Positions 39,670-45,748 of a DNA stretch of 64,000 nucleotides are shown piece after piece. The translations under genes were made by a program, and so were the position numbers. Under the pieces are notes generated by a model. The model worked only from the letters and a program-made list of their open reading frames with translations, did no database searches and was not told the origin of the DNA. Source of the stretch: Rhodoglobus sp. (GTDB lineage Bacteria; Actinomycetota; Actinomycetes; Actinomycetales; Microbacteriaceae); NCBI GenBank assembly GCA_025463605.1, contig JAODAV010000001.1, positions 1 to 64,000 of the forward strand, given 5' to 3'. The first letter of the stretch is position 1. Every line of letters starts with the position of its first letter.

Positions 39670-40884
39670 CTAGAACGGCGGCGGATCTGCTTCTCGAATA
39701 TGGCCGGTTGGGCTGGTCCACACCGCCCGTTCTGACCCTGGCGGCCGGTCGACCCGCCACTTGGTCTGGTGCTTCATCGTGTGGTGTTTACGGCACCGAT
39801 GGGCGAGGTTGTCGGCTGTAGTGAGCCCGCCGTCGGCCCACGCGCGGGTGTGGTCGAGGTCGCAGTGGGCGGCGCGACGACCGCAGCCGGGGAAGTCGCA
39901 AGTCACCTGCTCGATGGCGAGCCACCGTTTCAGGGCTGCCGAAGGTCGGTACTGATCACGATCCATATGAAGCACTGCACCGCTGACCGGGTGCGTCAGC
40001 AGCCGGGTGATCGAGGGTGCGGTAGCGCACAACCGGCGAGCACTGTCGATGTCGATCGGTCCGGCACCCTCGAGAATGGCCGGCTCGTCGGAATGCCCGA
40101 GAAGACTCATCACGGGGACCGTGAGCGCGACCGTCACTCCCACGCTCGAGGGCTGTTCGCGGGCGCCGGTGAGGAGCTCGGCGAGCTCGTCGGCCCGCAG
40201 TTGCGCCATCGTGCGTTCCTCCTCGGCTGCGGTGAAAAGCCCGAATGCCGTCGCGTCGAGGTTGGCACCGATCATCGCGAGCTTGTCGTTGGGCAGGTGG
40301 GCGTTCAGCCAGCCCATGCCGTCGGGACCGGGCTCGATCCACACCCCCCGATGCACTTCGGCGGCGTCGCGGCGTTCGGCGAGGGTGCGGGCCTGCAGCT
40401 TCTCCCGCACGGCTCGCGCGCGGGTGCGGAATCGTGCGGGGGCAAGTCTGCGCGCGGCATCCACGATCTGATTCTCGAATGCCGCCCAGAATTCGGCGGG
40501 CAGCTCCATGACGATCGCTGCGGCCTCTCGAGCATTCTGGGTGGAAACCTCTCCCTCGGTGAACCACGCCCAAAGCTGAGGAAGCCGCTCGCGGAGCGTG
40601 CTCGCCACGTGCCCGTGGCCGCGCACAGTGGATTCGGCGAGGTTCAGTCGCACCGCGAGATCGGCAGCGGCTGCTCGCACGGCAAACTCGACCGCATCAC
40701 CCCGCAGCATCGCGGCGTCGATGAACACCTCAGGATGGGCGGCCGCCTCCCGGAGGGTCGCGTCGATGGCTCGGAAGACCTCGGCCGACGCGCGCCACTG
40801 CGCACGCTGGGCGACCTCGGCTTCGGCCATGCCGAACTCGACGCGGGTGTCCGCGTTCGCCGTGTCAAACAGGAGGGCCTCCAT
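39670..40884 (-). CDS. DUF222 domain HNH endonuclease (13E12-repeat family)
   Basis: A 404-residue protein with a long helical DUF222 region and a C-terminal HNH nuclease: CDFPGCGRRAAHCDLDHTRA with DHTRAW, then HRCRKHHTMKH. The family is repeated many times in actinobacterial genomes (13E12 family of M. tuberculosis) and probably spreads as a mobile gene, though biological role is unsettled. ATG at 40884 is preferred; earlier in-frame starts lack ribosome binding sites and conserved sequence. Confidence 0.9.
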   Translation of the reverse strand: MEALLFDTANADTRVEFGMAEAEVAQRAQWRASAEVFRAIDATLREAAAHPEVFIDAAMLRGDAVEFAVRAAAADLAVRLNLAESTVRGHGHVASTLRERLPQLWAWFTEGEVSTQNAREAAAIVMELPAEFWAAFENQIVDAARRLAPARFRTRARAVREKLQARTLAERRDAAEVHRGVWIEPGPDGMGWLNAHLPNDKLAMIGANLDATAFGLFTAAEEERTMAQLRADELAELLTGAREQPSSVGVTVALTVPVMSLLGHSDEPAILEGAGPIDIDSARRLCATAPSITRLLTHPVSGAVLHMDRDQYRPSAALKRWLAIEQVTCDFPGCGRRAAHCDLDHTRAWADGGLTTADNLAHRCRKHHTMKHQTKWRVDRPPGSERAVWTSPTGHIREADPPPF

Positions 40885-40990
40885 GAACACAGTCAAGCAG
40901 CAGCCACCGACATTCAAGCCGACTAGAAAGTGCTGTTCAGAGCTGTATTTCTCCACAGGGTAGAACTATGCGAGGAGGGTGTGGAGGAGT

Positions 40991-41006
40991 GGAACCGGAA
41001 CTCCAC
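40991..41006 (-). repeat. Degenerate copy of the ychF 3' end (R4)
   Basis: On the minus strand the bases read as VEFRFHS in one frame, close to the VVEFRHS end of YchF, and share the core GTGGAGTTC with the copies at 41783, 42935, 43483 and 44677. The similarity is short and this copy is the least certain. It is part of an inverted repeat GTGGAG/CTCCAC (40981-41006). Confidence 0.4.
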
Positions 41007-41050
41007 ACTGATCCGATCGCTCATGAGGCTTGGCCCGCGCCAGCGCCCGA

Positions 41051-41407
41051 TCACAGCATCGGAGGAAACATCATCCCGCCCAGCATCACCGTCAGCAGCA
41101 CTCCGACGGCGCCGATGACGATCATTGCCGCGAACGTGGCCGTCTCAGCACGAGTTCGTATTCCCGAGTCGTTGCGTACACGCACGACCACGGCGAGCAC
41201 GAAAGCGAGCAGGAGAGCGACGCCGAAGACGAAAGCGAGGATAGGCCGTGCGTTCGCCGGCGGGCACAGCTGAACGCCGTTGCAGATCGTGGGTAGGAGA
41301 CTCGCCACTGCAAGCAGTGGGCCGATCACGACGAGTGCGATCACCGGCGCAACGAGATCCCGGATCAGTTCGGACCTCCGGGCGGCGCTAGTCGACACGG
41401 CCTTCAC
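41051..41407 (-). CDS. Small membrane protein, module A
   Basis: A 118-residue protein with three to four hydrophobic segments (DLVAPVIALVVIGPLLAVAS, ILAFVFGVALLLAFVLAVVV, MIVIGAVGVLLTVMLGG). It begins with GTG at 41407 (or 41398) inside the end of the upstream gene, so it is coupled to it. No family recognised. It lies in the first accessory module left of ychF. Confidence 0.65.
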   Translation of the reverse strand: MKAVSTSAARRSELIRDLVAPVIALVVIGPLLAVASLLPTICNGVQLCPPANARPILAFVFGVALLLAFVLAVVVRVRNDSGIRTRAETATFAAMIVIGAVGVLLTVMLGGMMFPPML

Positions 41408-41780
41408 ACGTGATTGCGGGACCGAGCCAACCCTCGGGCTGCGGGCATTCGCCGTCACGGATCGATGTGATCGGTTCGATCGTGACGGGGATAACCCCTC
41501 CAACCTCGCGGGCCGCCTCATTGTCAAAGCTGCCGGGCGGTGAGGCCGTGGGCGCCGCGACTGACTCGGACGTTGGATGCGCAGACGTGGTAGTAGTGGG
41601 CGGCGCGCTCGACGCTGTCTCGACACTCACCGGGGCGAGCACTGCATACCCGGCGACCCCTGCGACAACAAACGCGACCCATACAAGCAGGAGTGCGAGT
41701 CGATCGCCACCGACAACCGACCCGCGCTTGCGGCGGCTCGGCTGCGAGGCCCGCGGTGGCTGGTACACGAAGCTGAGCAT
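41388..41780 (-). CDS. Membrane-anchored protein with Ser/Thr/Pro-rich linker, module A
   Basis: A 130-residue protein with a basic N-terminus, one transmembrane helix (LALLLVWVAFVVAGVAGYAV), a Thr/Ser/Pro-rich linker (SSAPPTTTTSAHPTSES) and a short extracellular end with two cysteines. It starts with ATG two bases after the stop of the R3 ychF-like end. Unknown function. Confidence 0.7.
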   Translation of the reverse strand: MLSFVYQPPRASQPSRRKRGSVVGGDRLALLLVWVAFVVAGVAGYAVLAPVSVETASSAPPTTTTSAHPTSESVAAPTASPPGSFDNEAAREVGGVIPVTIEPITSIRDGECPQPEGWLGPAITCEGRVD

Positions 41781-41782
41781 AG

Positions 41783-41812
41783 CTACACGTTGAACCTGAA
41801 CTCCACCACGTT
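41783..41812 (-). repeat. ychF 3'-end copy R3
   Basis: Minus-strand translation gives NVVEFRFNV and a TAG stop, which is the C-terminus of many actinobacterial YchF proteins. A 26-base core (41787-41812) is identical to copy R2 at 42939-42964. No YchF body is attached. Confidence 0.7.
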
Positions 41813-41882
41813 CCGTCGGCAAGAAACCTGAGAGGCCGGTCAGGACCCTTGACGGGCGCCTGAGCCGGAGTAGCATGACCCC

Positions 41883-42830
41883 ATGTCCGGTCGCATCGGC
41901 GCACGTACACTGTCCACCATCGCATTGGGTGCGCTCTTCCTTGTTTCAGGGATACCCGCAGCCCTCGCCGCACCGCAGTCACCGCCCGGTCATTTCGAGG
42001 ATGTGATCGCGCTACCCGACGGGTTCCAACCCGAGGGAATCGCGATCGGCCCTGGCGGCACTGCATACGTCGGCTCTCTCGCCGACGGCGACGTCTACGT
42101 CTTCGATGTGCGCACCGGCGAGGAGATCACGACCCTCGAGGGTCCTGGTACTCCGTCGGTTGGCCTGAAGATCGACAATCGGGATCGGCTATTCATCGCA
42201 GGCGGGCCCACCGGCGAGGCGCGGGTCGTGGATGCCGCCACGGGCGAACTCCTTCAGAGCTACACCCTCACCGATGCGCCGACGTTCGTGAACGACGTCG
42301 TCGTGACTCGCGACGCCGCATGGTTCACGGACAGCCAGCAGGCGCAGCTCTACAAGCTCCCCATCGGACAGGACGGCGCGCTCCCGGAGCCGGATGCGAT
42401 CGAGGTTGTCCCCCTGTCGGGCGACTGGGTGCAGCAGCCGGGCTTCAACGCCAACGGCATCGCGGAGACCCCCAACCGCCAGGCGCTCCTCGTCATCCAG
42501 TCGTCCACAGGCTTCCTGTTCCGCGTCGATCCCGAGACCGGCGTCGCCACGGTCGTTGACCTGGGCGGAGTCGTGCTCGCCAACGGTGATGGGCTGCTCG
42601 TCGTCGGACGCACCCTGTACGTCGTACAGAACCAGTTGAACACGGTCGCCGTCATCCGCCTCAACGCAGCAGGGACCAGCGGCGAACTCGTCGACCAGCG
42701 CACTGACCCCGACTTCCAGGTGCCGACGACGATCGCGAGGTTCGGCAACGGGCTCTACCTCCCGAACGCGCGCTTCGACACTCCCCCGACGCCCGACACT
42801 GCGTACTCGGTGGTGCGCATCGACCGGTGA
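41883..42830 (+). CDS. Secreted SMP-30/gluconolactonase-like beta-propeller, module B
   Basis: A 315-residue exported protein. The signal peptide (STIALGALFLVSGIPAALAA, cleavage near residue 30) is followed by beta-propeller blades with repeated patterns such as PEGIAIGPGGTAYVGSLADG and NGDGLLVVGRTLYVVQNQ. This matches the SMP-30/gluconolactonase/LRE-like fold; metal ligands are not clear. It reads in the opposite direction to the other modules and is flanked by R3 and R2. Confidence 0.82.
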   Translation: MSGRIGARTLSTIALGALFLVSGIPAALAAPQSPPGHFEDVIALPDGFQPEGIAIGPGGTAYVGSLADGDVYVFDVRTGEEITTLEGPGTPSVGLKIDNRDRLFIAGGPTGEARVVDAATGELLQSYTLTDAPTFVNDVVVTRDAAWFTDSQQAQLYKLPIGQDGALPEPDAIEVVPLSGDWVQQPGFNANGIAETPNRQALLVIQSSTGFLFRVDPETGVATVVDLGGVVLANGDGLLVVGRTLYVVQNQLNTVAVIRLNAAGTSGELVDQRTDPDFQVPTTIARFGNGLYLPNARFDTPPTPDTAYSVVRIDR

Positions 42831-42934
42831 TTCGTCGCCTGCCTCCGGGCGCAGGATGGGTCGCCGCACTCTGCGTCACCCCGCGGGTGCTCCGGGTGGA
42901 CCGGTGAGCACGGTGGGCACGTACTCGAAGCCAG

Positions 42935-42964
42935 TTATACGTTGAACCTGAACTCCACCACGTT
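42935..42964 (-). repeat. ychF 3'-end copy R2
   Basis: The minus strand encodes GNVVEFRFNV followed by TAA. It directly follows the stop codon of the module C gene (42968). The core is identical over 26 bases to R3. Confidence 0.7.
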
Positions 42965-42967
42965 TCC

Positions 42968-43399
42968 CTAGGTCGATGTGCCCCGCCACTTTCGCCCGTA
43001 CCAAAATATCGACCCTGCGGCCAGTGCGGTGAGAATCCAAGGCACCAAGGGTTCAAGCGCCACGCCCGTAAACGTGTGGACGATGTTGTCATCGGCGTCA
43101 TTGTCTACGCCCGACGGTTGGTATCGAGCGTCGACCGTTCCGTCGGAGTCGGGCTTGCCGTCGAGATAGACGTCTTCAAGTCTGATGGTTCCATCATCGC
43201 TCACCCAGGTCCCAACACTTCGACATCCGAAGCGCCCACCCTCAACACAGCTCTCCTCGGTGAACGTTCCCCAATAGGTGGGCTGGTTAGCATCGATGAT
43301 GCCCGCAATACCGATGCCGACGCCGATAAGTGCGACACCACCCATGACGACGAAGAAGAGCATGCGAAGGAATCGCTTCACCCACCGCGGCGGGGTCAT
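42968..43399 (-). CDS. DUF3592-like membrane protein, module C
   Basis: A 143-residue protein with an N-terminal helix (MLFFVVMGGVALIGVGIGIA), an extracellular beta domain with two cysteines (SCVEGGRFGCRSVGTWVSDDG) and a second helix near the end (PLVPWILTALAAGSIFWYG). This two-helix layout resembles DUF3592-type proteins. ATG at 43399 is chosen; GTG at 43417 is possible. Unknown function. Confidence 0.65.
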   Translation of the reverse strand: MTPPRWVKRFLRMLFFVVMGGVALIGVGIGIAGIIDANQPTYWGTFTEESCVEGGRFGCRSVGTWVSDDGTIRLEDVYLDGKPDSDGTVDARYQPSGVDNDADDNIVHTFTGVALEPLVPWILTALAAGSIFWYGRKWRGTST

Positions 43400-43482
43400 G
43401 CGGGGTCGCTGTCTCACCGCTGCACTGGCGCTGCTGGCAATCGCAACTCCTGCTTGAGGTCTAGATCGAACACGGCCTGATA

Positions 43483-43520
43483 CCTAACTGTGGCGGAACT
43501 CCACGACATCCCCGTCCTGC
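43483..43520 (-). repeat. ychF 3'-end copy R1
   Basis: Thirty-eight bases match the end of ychF (44677-44714) with five differences, all of them at third codon positions and all silent, so both encode QDGDVVEFRHS followed by TAG. This copy must derive from a functional ychF of a relative. Confidence 0.85.
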
Positions 43521-43539
43521 CATCCGCGCCACGATCCGG

Positions 43540-44415
43540 TCAGGCCGTTGGGGGTTGCAGGTCGCCCAAGCGCGCGGCGACCAGTTCCACGAACGTCGCC
43601 ACGTCCTGCTCGAGGACGCGACCGTCGGTGAGTACGCGCACCTGCACGATGAGGTTGCCGCGCTGAAGGTCCCACACATACGACCTCCATCGGGGCCCAG
43701 GGGTCCCCTCACGCACCCAGCCCACCGCCGCAACTTCGTTCGGTACGCCGATGGCCGCCTGTGCCGTGATCTGGACGAGTGACGTGTCGAGGCCGCCCGC
43801 CGATGGCACGTCCAAGTCCTGCCAAGGGCAGGCAGCCACGCGCATGTGGAGGTCGTGCATGAACGCACTCGCGTCCTCAGTAGTCGGGAATAGCCGAGTG
43901 GAGATGTCCATCACTTCGTCGTCCGTCTCCCAGACCTGGACCCGGCTGACCGGGTCCGCCGAGGCGCTGTCTGGGCCAACCGGGAAGTATGGCGCGTTGG
44001 TAGGGATGAACGAGCACTCCGCGTCCCCGCCTATCGCGAGCCACTGCTCACCTCCGGCCGGTGCGACCTCGGCCACCGTGCTCGACTCGAGATCACCCAC
44101 GCCGTGGAGCTCATCCTTGATCGACAGGTGAGCAACGTCTTCGGCGGACACTCCTAGAAGACTCGAGGTACCGATGTCGAAACAACGGTCTGGACACAGG
44201 AGTGGCGAGTTCGCGTCCGGCTGTTGAGCCGGTCCCTCGAGAAACGGATGGTCCGGGCTTGTCTCCCCCACGCTGTGGTTGACGTAGGCGACGAAGCCCA
44301 AGACCGTCAGCGCGACGAAGCCGAGAACCGCTGCCACCGCGAGCGCGATCAACGTCCACCCCCACCAGGGCATGCCTCGCTTCTTCGGTGGTCCCGGCAG
44401 GGCGACCTCGCTCAT
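43540..44415 (-). CDS. Membrane-anchored extracellular protein, module D
   Basis: A 291-residue protein with a proline-rich cytoplasmic start, one transmembrane helix (WWGWTLIALAVAAVLGFVAL) and a large extracellular part containing cysteines (LLCPDRCFD, AECSF, AACPW). The layout resembles sensor domains such as PknH-type, but no family is firmly recognised. ATG overlaps the stop of the upstream small gene as ATGA, so the two form an operon. Confidence 0.72.
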   Translation of the reverse strand: MSEVALPGPPKKRGMPWWGWTLIALAVAAVLGFVALTVLGFVAYVNHSVGETSPDHPFLEGPAQQPDANSPLLCPDRCFDIGTSSLLGVSAEDVAHLSIKDELHGVGDLESSTVAEVAPAGGEQWLAIGGDAECSFIPTNAPYFPVGPDSASADPVSRVQVWETDDEVMDISTRLFPTTEDASAFMHDLHMRVAACPWQDLDVPSAGGLDTSLVQITAQAAIGVPNEVAAVGWVREGTPGPRWRSYVWDLQRGNLIVQVRVLTDGRVLEQDVATFVELVAARLGDLQPPTA

Positions 44416-44597
44416 GTCGGCGGGAATCCATACTTCGACGGATTGCTCAGAGTCGTGTCAACAGTCTGAGCAGCACTGGTCTCGTTCATATCAACTTCGC
44501 CCAAGATCTCGATGGCTCGTTGTCGGTCGCGCGCGATGATCGCGGAATCCCATTCGTCGAGCAAGCGGGCCACGAAGAGACGCTCGTTCACGGTCAT
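44412..44597 (-). CDS. Small conserved protein, module D
   Basis: A 61-residue soluble protein, VNERLFVARLLDEWDSAI with C-terminal NPSKYGFPPT. Similar short proteins (NERLFxAxLLDxFD and NPxxYGF) recur in actinobacteria, often near membrane or toxin-type genes, without assigned function. ATG at 44597 is chosen because the conserved start begins there. It is coupled to the 43540 gene. Confidence 0.7.
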   Translation of the reverse strand: MTVNERLFVARLLDEWDSAIIARDRQRAIEILGEVDMNETSAAQTVDTTLSNPSKYGFPPT

Positions 44598-44676
44598 CCC
44601 CGAGTAGCTTGGCCGGCCCAACGTCACGACCACGAGCCTAACGGCTCTGCAGCAAAATGCGTCCGCTCCCAAAATG

Positions 44677-44714
44677 CCTAACTGTGACGGAACTCCACCA
44701 CGTCGCCATCCTGC
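44677..44714 (-). repeat. ychF 3' end R0, presumed integration site
   Basis: The last twelve codons of ychF and its stop. Variants of this segment recur at 43483, 42935, 41783 and, more weakly, 40991, each followed by accessory genes. Confidence 0.7.
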
Positions 44715-45748
44715 ATCACGTACTCCTTGCCCTCGATGCGGGCCTTGCCGCGAGCGCGGGCTTCGGCGATCGACCCGGCGGCGACGAGGTCGTCGAAACC
44801 GATCACCTCCGCTTTGATGAAGCCCTTTTCGAAGTCGGTGTGGATGACGCCCGCCGCTTGCGGAGCCTTCCAGCCTTTGCCGATCGTCCAGGCCCTCGAC
44901 TCCTTCGGACCGGCAGTGAGATAGGTCTGCAGTCCGAGCGTGTCGAAGCCGATGCGCGCGAGTTGGTCGAGACCGCTCTCCTCCTGGCCGGTGGACGCGA
45001 GCAGTTCGGCCGCGTCGGCGGGATCGAGGTCGATCAGTTCCGACTCGAGTTTGGCGTCGAGCAAGACGGCGTGAGCCGGGGAAACGAGGGCTTCGAGGGT
45101 GGCCCTCTTCGAGGCATCCGTGAGTATTGCCTCGTCGACATTGAAGACGTAGATGAACGGCTTGGCGGTCAGCAAGCCGAGTTCGCGAATCGGCGAGATG
45201 TCGATTCCGGATGCCGACAGCGTCGTGCCGGCGTTCAGCGCCTTCTGCGCGGCGAGCGCCGTCTCGAGCACGACGGGCTCGACGCGCTTGGTCTTGAGTT
45301 CCTTCTCGTACCGAGCGATCGCCTTCTCGAGCGTCTGCAGGTCGGCGAGGATGAGCTCGGTGTTGATGGTCTCCATGTCGCTCGCCGGATGCACGGCGCC
45401 GTCGACGTGCACGACATCCGAGTCCTCGAATCCGCGAATGACCTGGGCGATCGCATCGGCCTCGCGAATGTTGGCGAGGAACTTGTTGCCGAGCCCCTCC
45501 CCGACGCTTGCGCCCTTCACGATGCCGGCGATGTCGACGAATGAAACCGGGGCGGGCAGGATGCGCTCGCTCGAGAAAATCTCGGCGAGAGTGTTGAGGC
45601 GCTCATCGGGCAGGTTGACGACCCCGATGTTGGGCTCGATCGTCGCGAACGGATAATTCGCTGCGAGCACCTGGTTCTTCGTGAGCGCATTGAAGAGCGT
45701 CGACTTGCCGACGTTGGGAAGACCGACGATCGCGATAGTGAGAGCCAC
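44678..45748 (-). CDS. ychF: Ribosome-associated ATPase YchF/OLA1
   Basis: A 356-residue Obg-family P-loop ATPase. The N-terminus ALTIAIVGLPNVGKSTLFNA holds the P-loop, FVDIAGIVKGASVGEGLG the G3 region and YVFNVDEA the altered G4 (NxxE) that marks YchF. The C-terminal TGS domain ends in VVEFRHS. It binds ribosomes and influences oxidative stress responses in E. coli. GTG at 45748 is chosen because homology begins there. Its 3' end appears to be an integration site. Confidence 0.95.
   Translation of the reverse strand: MALTIAIVGLPNVGKSTLFNALTKNQVLAANYPFATIEPNIGVVNLPDERLNTLAEIFSSERILPAPVSFVDIAGIVKGASVGEGLGNKFLANIREADAIAQVIRGFEDSDVVHVDGAVHPASDMETINTELILADLQTLEKAIARYEKELKTKRVEPVVLETALAAQKALNAGTTLSASGIDISPIRELGLLTAKPFIYVFNVDEAILTDASKRATLEALVSPAHAVLLDAKLESELIDLDPADAAELLASTGQEESGLDQLARIGFDTLGLQTYLTAGPKESRAWTIGKGWKAPQAAGVIHTDFEKGFIKAEVIGFDDLVAAGSIAEARARGKARIEGKEYVMQDGDVVEFRHS

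Follow-up and report, generated by a model that had tools for sequence, protein, structure and literature searches.

How did several copies of the last codons of one gene come to stand in a row behind a single complete copy of that gene? The question is raised by ychF in a stretch of 64,000 nucleotides from Rhodoglobus sp. (Microbacteriaceae; assembly GCA_025463605.1, contig JAODAV010000001.1, positions 1 to 64,000; hereafter the window), which is the start of a 387.8-kb contig in an assembly that is 87% complete. The original prediction placed five copies of the ychF 3' end here (R0 at ychF itself, then R1 to R4), separated by modules of small genes, and proposed repeated integration into the end of ychF, each element bringing a new end and displacing the older one. 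We found the copies where they had been placed, R1 to R3 by profile score and R4 by synteny with congener G008; a complete ychF is attached to R0 only, and the modules between the repeats, at 40990-44715, measure about 0.5-1.2 kb. Serial integration is supported by an empty site in G008, by the varying distance between ychF and a DUF222 gene beyond the array, and by exact cassette ends in other genomes. We consider it probable that serial insertions into the last codons of ychF built the array, and elements encoding a large serine recombinase (LSR) may carry cassettes that encode none.

Copies of the ychF end in the window

A profile of the ychF end, built from relatives, gave 43.7 bits for R0, 38.4 for R1, 29.0 for R2, 20.5 for R3 and 10.7 for R4. 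On the opposite strand of the scanned loci the same profile exceeded 15 bits at 3 of 1,035,069 positions and 10 bits at 12. R1 to R3 thus score far above the opposite-strand background, which rules out chance for these three, and R4 is borderline on its score alone. One high reverse-strand score, equal to that of a ychF end, came from G027, a genome with more than one ychF match. All of R0 to R4 are oriented as ychF.

An empty site and polymorphic insertions among congeners

In congener G008, ychF ends in FRFNN-stop and similarity to the DUF222 gene of the window (80% at the protein level) starts 47 bp further, followed by a homologue (65%) of the window's next gene. When the two sequences were aligned, similarity started exactly at the GT of R4 and continued through DUF222. 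R4 is therefore the original ychF end and the window carries 3.7 kb extra. A DUF222 homologue also lies behind ychF at 0.8 kb in G004, 1.2 kb in G012, 1.6 kb in G003 and 4.7 kb in G014, and the distance from ychF to DUF222 ranges from 0.05 to 4.7 kb across these five congeners and the window. An R4-like site before DUF222 is clear in G014 only; G004, G012 and G003 have no close one (6-7/16 mismatches). The site was recognised at 11 of 26 same-genus loci, the window counted. The comparison of relatives behind ychF that the original prediction had suggested thus revealed an empty site and polymorphic insertions, and the identical order of genes from DUF222 to ychF in all relatives, which was to speak against integration, was not found. 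As judged from these alignments, successive site-specific insertions left the stacked ychF ends behind as scars.

The 0-4.6 kb behind the ychF tail of G014 (locus L033; a tail of the P' type described below) contain what look by eye like phage genes, ending at a site identical to R4 before DUF222. No LSR was found in this insert.

Distribution of the site

A search of 119 relatives for CGGAACGTGGTGGAGTTCCGNTT, with at most 2 mismatches, led to the identification of 23 sites in 18 genomes, and the reversed pattern gave 0. Twenty of the 23 sites are downstream of ychF, on its own contig and strand and within 9 kb; of the remaining three, that of G003 is itself a ychF end and those of G084 and G115 are on other contigs. 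An insertion-site profile, on which its training sites score high by construction, detected 45 sites above 12 bits at 25 of 78 ychF loci, compared with 2 of 1,326,078 positions on the reverse strand. Within the order, the strict pattern was present in 26 of 149 genomes and the reversed control in 0. A scan of a collection of 84,980 species, the totals of which are lower bounds and the pattern of which favours attB-type tails, yielded at least 118 stretches with the site. Among these 118 listed stretches, 277 sites exceeded 14 bits on the ychF strand vs 0 on the reverse; ychF is in view in 38 of them, and a few (e.g. L221, L231) have no arm and may be chance. Their titles all bear what we take to be actinobacterial names, from orders including Micrococcales, Pseudonocardiales, Streptosporangiales and Propionibacteriales. 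No stretch of the viral contigs matched the strict pattern or the arm pattern, and a looser pattern matched 2. As in G084, the stretches L155, L182 and L265 (Occultella) carry a well-formed site with no ychF visible on the same contig.

Anatomy of the site

In the 118 listed stretches the 16 bases left of the searched pattern follow AGA(G/T)GTTNNTCNGTN(A/C) though they were free to vary, and this left-arm conservation ends 25 positions away from the GT at the centre of CGGAACNCG-GT-GGAGTTCCG. The exchange point is this GT, which belongs to the codon for the second Val of VVEF; the GT of GTG-GAG-TTC is common to the junctions, and just left of it the variants TC and GC occur, which are absent from ychF ends, so that exchange took place at or next to GT. 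The ychF tail stands right of it. In serine integrase sites the zinc-domain motif is 5 bp closer to the centre in attB half-sites than in those of attP (available text of PMC3783163). When the motif columns of the left arm and the tail were compared at shifts from -3 to 11, shift 5 alone gave a correlation (r 0.71, the second-highest value being 0.38), with AGAGGTT at positions 25-19 from GT on the left and AGACGTT at 20-14 on the right. The arm length and the 5-bp shift indicate that the left arm is attP-like (P) and the FRFNV tail attB-like (B'). This half-site architecture, with a P arm of ~25 nt, is present in the 118 listed sites, in R3 and, worn, in R2; the insertion-site profile gave 62 bits for R3 and 30 for R2 and recognised neither R1 (-17) nor R4 (-6). 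An empty site and exchange at one dinucleotide were both observed, in the comparison of G008 with the window and in the exact cassette ends.

The same features bear on an origin of the repeats from a decayed ychF duplication, which the original prediction had named against itself, or from plain homologous recombination at ychF. The left half of R1 is ychF of the congener type, and allele recombination may have made R1. R2 and R3, however, have attP-like arms and not ychF left of the GT, the homology to the G008 empty site begins at GT, and cassettes found in different genera end at GT with unrelated flanks. A decayed duplication leaves both the attP-like left arms and the inserts common to several genera unexplained. 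This origin is refuted in general and scarcely credible for the array, and is possible for R1.

The recombinase and the two types of ychF tail

No integrase or other recombinase gene was seen among the array genes of the window, as the original prediction had said in proposing that integrases be sought in strains with longer insertions. In one such strain, G060, a 12.7-kb insert separates ychF from the site, and a gene for a 433-aa serine recombinase, on the strand opposite to the site, starts 15 bp away from it. A serine integrase occupies the same position in both viral contigs with a matching site and in loci from Nonomuraea (L234), Frigoribacterium (L239) and Brevibacterium (L272), and full-length LSR genes adjoin sites in G060, L179, L180, L234, L239 and L272. 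Resolvase and Recombinase domains scored above the cut-off in all three proteins scanned (G060, L179 and L180). A full-length LSR with these domains was found neither in the window array nor, intact, in the window's assembly, and a PF00239 match was absent in 5 of 22 genomes checked, all five of which carry a site (G018, G020, G026, G032 and G047).

The ychF of the window, in common with those of G060 and G065, ends in FRHS-stop-GCAT. On its complementary strand this kind of tail has the attP motif at 25-19 (AAATGCC, AGATGCC), which is the pattern expected of attL (B-P') behind a complete LSR element. We therefore distinguished attP-type (P') from attB-type (B') tails. Six genomes were fetched via an LSR or an LSR fragment, the sixth being too short to read: G220, G221 and G225, with a full-length LSR behind ychF, have P'-type tails, and G222 and G224, with LSR fragments deep in the array, have B'-type tails. 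Over the 83 readable loci, which do not include L065, whose centre could not be read, or G223, whose contig ends 0.8 kb behind ychF, an attP-type tail was present at 4/4 ychF loci with a full-length LSR vs 4/79 others (Fisher 3.8e-5); in the first locus set alone the numbers are 1/1 with LSR vs 4/77 without. At the far end, attR (P-B') was recognised in 3 of the 4 LSR loci, where the P arm mirrors the P' tail at 16 (G060), 15 (G220) and 18 (G221) of 25 positions, compared with 6.7 +- 2.3 of 25 at random positions of the G060 locus.

We then weighed tyrosine-integrase islands with their core in ychF. Direct repeats at the 3' end of a gene, together with the 6-bp inverted repeat CGGAAC/GTTCCG, the only inverted repeat noticed at the site, would suit a tyrosine integrase, and so would the 5.9-kb insert of G053 (L067, 0-6 kb behind ychF) with its long perfect repeat of the ychF end. 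However, the ychF contig has no PF00589 match less than 100 kb from the gene in any of 16 array genomes, and the arms have serine-integrase architecture. Such islands are very improbable as the source of the arrays, and CGGAAC/GTTCCG as a tyrosine core site was dropped given the LSR genes and the arm lengths. Insertion of the LSR type is highly probable. The G053 insert also holds pieces of broken genes; no LSR was found in it, and it may use another recombinase.

Other LSRs were compared in phages, viral contigs and a plasmid. The LSR regions of 11 named phages and one plasmid, with LSRs at most 40% identical, contain no such site (7 to 11 mismatches in the 20-base core). The L180 LSR used as query in viral contigs matched only L180 itself, and in five viral contigs with G060-like LSRs the best cores had 5 to 8 mismatches and none was at the LSR start, two of the five LSRs starting at a contig edge. 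In the viral contig L180 the site stands between a serine integrase and an ORF of 405 aa that by eye resembles a tyrosine integrase; the arrangement could represent tandem prophages or a captured neighbour. Other imperfect palindromes (14-18/25), perhaps the attP of the phages themselves, precede the serine integrase gene by 19-22 bp in five Microbacterium and Arthrobacter phages (L300, L301, L302, L305 and L309).

Some cassettes without recombinase are common to different genera

We collected 207 cassettes bounded by successive sites, 162 from the 118 listed stretches and 45 from ychF loci, with two genomes counted twice (L043/L278 and L152/L285). Their median length is 1,233 bp (quartiles 815 and 2,020) and 178 contain 1-3 predicted genes. 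Similarity to any of five LSRs was found in 2 of the 207, a figure to be read with the fact that bounding within 8-kb stretches disfavours long elements. Five cassettes, of ~1313, 1875, 654, 1191 and 1176 bp, are common to different genera at 94-99.5% identity from GT to GT, and their flanks are unrelated outside the site itself; one pair comes from Thermocrispum and Brachybacterium. The 1176- and 1313-bp cassettes are consecutive in Microbacterium barkeri, and the 1313- and 1875-bp cassettes in Brachybacterium massiliense. The 1313-bp cassette thus stands beside different partners in two species, indicating that neighbours have been reshuffled. A 2410-bp cassette found in four species was rejected as an exact unit: in three of them identity continues left to at least 4.2 kb, and the right end alone is exact.

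Seventeen cassettes from different species (e.g. L205.3, L211.2, L212.1 and L225.2) have a 630-bp front in common, made of the ychF tail and a HigB/HigA-like pair, behind which there are 13 groups of differing cargo. Other cargo scanned includes GNAT, glyoxalase, OsmC, MsrA and a PIN-domain protein, and 2.1-4.0 kb behind ychF in G032 (L079) a protein pair matches the AbiLi and AbiLii models, a phage-defence cargo. The first insert of L149 (G046), 1.7-8.0 kb behind ychF, contains three genes that by eye resemble a type I restriction-modification set.

These units could be decayed LSR elements that lost their recombinase in place and are now immobile. Units in L208, L247 and L267 do keep 56-72 codons of the start of an LSR beside the site, and R2 and R4 of the window are worn. 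Such decay in place does not fit the exact LSR-free cassettes that recur across genera between unrelated flanks; even the truncated-LSR unit recurs over ~3 kb, with 94-96% identity, in Brachybacterium, Acidipropionibacterium and Brevibacterium, and the scarcity of LSR similarity among the bounded cassettes points the same way, with the limit on long elements given above. We regard this explanation as rather unlikely.

How the cassettes may move

By the canonical rules, attP x attB integrates, parallel attL x attR excises with a directionality factor, and attR x attR pair in antiparallel only (PMC3783163, available text). An attR x attR reaction as the cassette route was dropped because of this antiparallel pairing; no attR x attR wording was found in PMC5814800. 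Hitch-hiking of cassettes on LSR elements is possible, and we put it at somewhat below an even chance. LSR elements, such as phages or genomic elements, would enter the ychF end by attP x attB, and an array with a resident element (E) and cassettes (c1, c2) would read B-P' [E] P-B' [c1] P-B' [c2]. On excision, attL would pair either with the first attR, releasing E alone, or with a later attR, releasing E plus c1. The larger circle could enter the attB of a new host, where E would exit via the nearest attR and c1 would remain, with its own tail on ychF and its P joined to the old tail of the host. Each round would regenerate attB, and the cassette itself would need no recombinase, two canonical reactions being sufficient. 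G221 (Brevibacterium sp. S111) has the starting configuration of this model, an LSR element at ychF followed by further P-B' sites.

Alternatively, an LSR-free P-B' circle could insert directly into the B-B' end of ychF, with an LSR acting in trans and relaxed pairing. The cassettes are P-B' units and direct insertion predicts an identical anatomy. On the other hand, canonical serine integrases require two P-with-B contacts per synapse, and the antiparallel pairing of attR x attR also stands against this route (same source), which we judge unlikely.

Several observations weigh against serial LSR-type insertion with hitch-hiking cassettes. Excision and transfer are inferred, neither of them having been observed, nor any circle. 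Of the four LSR loci, three were picked through their LSR, before tails were read. P'-type tails also occur with no LSR in view in the window, G065 and G014, and in G044, which is cut by the contig end. The far site of G225 was not recognised, and other arms of the G221 array mirror its tail at 13-15 of 25 positions, nearly as well as the far-end arm, so that P-P' pairing is not exclusive. The window's assembly has no intact LSR, its single PF00239 match having an internal stop and lying on another contig. The G084 site is on a different contig from ychF. Finally, R1 falls outside the simple insertion scheme.

Composition of the window array

The features of the array are listed in Table 1.

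Table 1. The ychF array of the window, from ychF to the DUF222 gene.
Feature	Position	Strand	Description
ychF, complete, target gene	44678..45748	-	Pfam and NCBIfam YchF; end VVEFRHS, attP-type (P') tail
R0	at ychF 3' end, centre GT 44697-44698	-	attL-like (B-P') by tail type
Module A, R0 to R1	43505..44696	-	gene 43540-44415 (291 aa, membrane-anchored by eye) and small ORF 44412-44597
R1	43484..43520, centre 43503-43504	-	16-nt ychF-like left half and P'-like tail, VVEFRHS stop; usual left arm absent
Module B, R1 to R2	42959..43502	-	gene 42968-43378 or longer (at least 137 aa)
R2	42935..42983, centre 42957-42958	-	worn attP-like arm and attB-like tail, VVEFRFNV stop; 30 bits
Module C, R2 to R3	41807..42956	+	gene 41883-42830, 315 aa, beta-propeller-like, opposite to ychF
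R3	41783..41831, centre 41805-41806	-	well-kept attP-like arm and attB-like tail, VVEFRFNV stop; 62 bits
Module D, R3 to R4	41007..41804	-	genes 41391-41780 (130 aa) and 41051-41404 (118 aa)
R4	40985..41031, centre 41005-41006	-	displaced original ychF end, tail partly deleted; from the empty-site alignment with G008
DUF222 gene	39670..40956	-	chromosomal gene flanking the array on its far side; also adjoins the G008 empty site

Homologues of the module A protein, with 67-68% identity, lie behind ychF in congeners G007, G021 and G022; Pfam, NCBIfam and PADLOC scans gave no family for the module A genes. Module B has a weak homologue (37%) in G022. Module C has 86% nucleotide identity over 1009 bp to a segment 8.6-9.6 kb behind ychF in G032, which belongs to another genus, and the similarity stops within the R3 arm. 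The module D genes gave no family in Pfam and NCBIfam scans. Modules C and D look like old cassettes, and modules A and B, behind the attL-type tail, are probably the remainder of the last element.

Compared by eye, the left half of R1 consists of 16 nt of ychF in the form that congeners G004 and G014 have. From its sequence, R1 could be a mirror-image cassette end, with a B arm in place of the P arm, or a trace of recombination between ychF alleles. In G007 (L073), ~0.8 kb behind ychF, there is an R1-like site in which a short ychF-like left half replaces the attP-like arm, and this site adjoins the homologue of the module A protein. R1 and the G007 site possibly represent a second, mirror-image kind of cassette end.

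Relation to known systems

Integrons hold small mobile cassettes, frequently toxin-antitoxin pairs, arrayed at a fixed chromosomal site; the cassettes have no recombinase and are reshuffled between taxa. The ychF arrays likewise consist of small recombinase-free cassettes at a fixed chromosomal site, with toxin-antitoxin pairs frequent among them, reshuffled and common to different taxa. They differ in having no integron integrase beside them, in their double-stranded sites of the serine-integrase type and in the position of the site inside a host gene, the end of which is rewritten by each insert. An intI-type tyrosine integrase beside the array was absent: the four PF00589 matches of the window's assembly are all on other contigs, and the 16 array genomes have none near ychF. 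Accretion of cis-mobilizable elements (CIMEs) and integrative and conjugative elements (ICEs) moves recombinase-free att-flanked elements in tandem with a neighbour, by tyrosine integrases and in islands of many kilobases. The ychF arrays also have recombinase-free att-flanked units beside an element, whereas their sites are of the LSR type and their units ~1 kb. Actinophage serine integrases of the phiC31, Bxb1 and A118 types are alike in domain make-up, in an attP next to the gene and in attP/attB half-site logic; they differ in that here ychF is the target and LSR-free arrays are neighbours, the phage LSRs of the collection (at most 40% identity) using other sites.

In the staphylococcal and Enterococcus cassette chromosomes (SCC and ECC), Ccr serine recombinases act at the 3' end of rlmH/orfX, and ccr-free pseudo-SCC and composites occur (PMC6243372 and PMC6222049, available text). 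As far as that text goes, the ychF arrays resemble them in their serine recombinases, in targeting a conserved gene at its 3' end and leaving it intact, in direct repeats of ~50 bp, in multiple attR sites, in tandem elements and in recombinase-free forms. In contrast, the ychF arrays occur in another phylum and at another gene, with a single LSR of ~430-490 aa next to attR, and their units are mostly ~1 kb and LSR-free, in arrays in many genera, whereas the described ECC measure 21-78 kb. The ccr genes and rlmH insertion that define SCC are both lacking in the window, where the target is ychF and the array has no recombinase gene. The best model is a system that is SCC-like in mechanism and integron-like in effect.

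Pneumococcal prophages are inserted upstream of ychF (PMC10383233 and PMC8637289) and in the second of these are grouped with tyrosine integrases, according to the available parts of both papers, and the available main text of PMC10083194 does not name ychF. Our searches of the open-access literature gave no paper describing serine integrases that act at ychF in actinobacteria. The original prediction knew of no described element using ychF in the family; our search likewise found none, and the phenomenon itself extends beyond Microbacteriaceae. In the literature searched, ychF as an actinobacterial serine-integrase site with arrays of kilobase-size LSR-free cassettes was not found.

To our knowledge, integrons are rare in actinobacteria. 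We tentatively propose, with slightly less than even confidence, that the ychF arrays are a serine-recombinase counterpart of the integron, in which a pool of recombinase-free cassettes across actinobacteria, arrayed at the ychF attB, travels between families and orders on LSR phages and elements. If this is true, actinobacteria would gain a cassette-capture platform of their own, with a site recognisable from its sequence in any genome. It would account for orphan small genes behind ychF, and the type of the ychF tail (attB' or attP') could be read as a record of resident elements. It would also point to LSRs that, in many soil and industrial genera, have a conserved natural attB, and would offer a testable case of recombinase-free units that are moved by borrowing.

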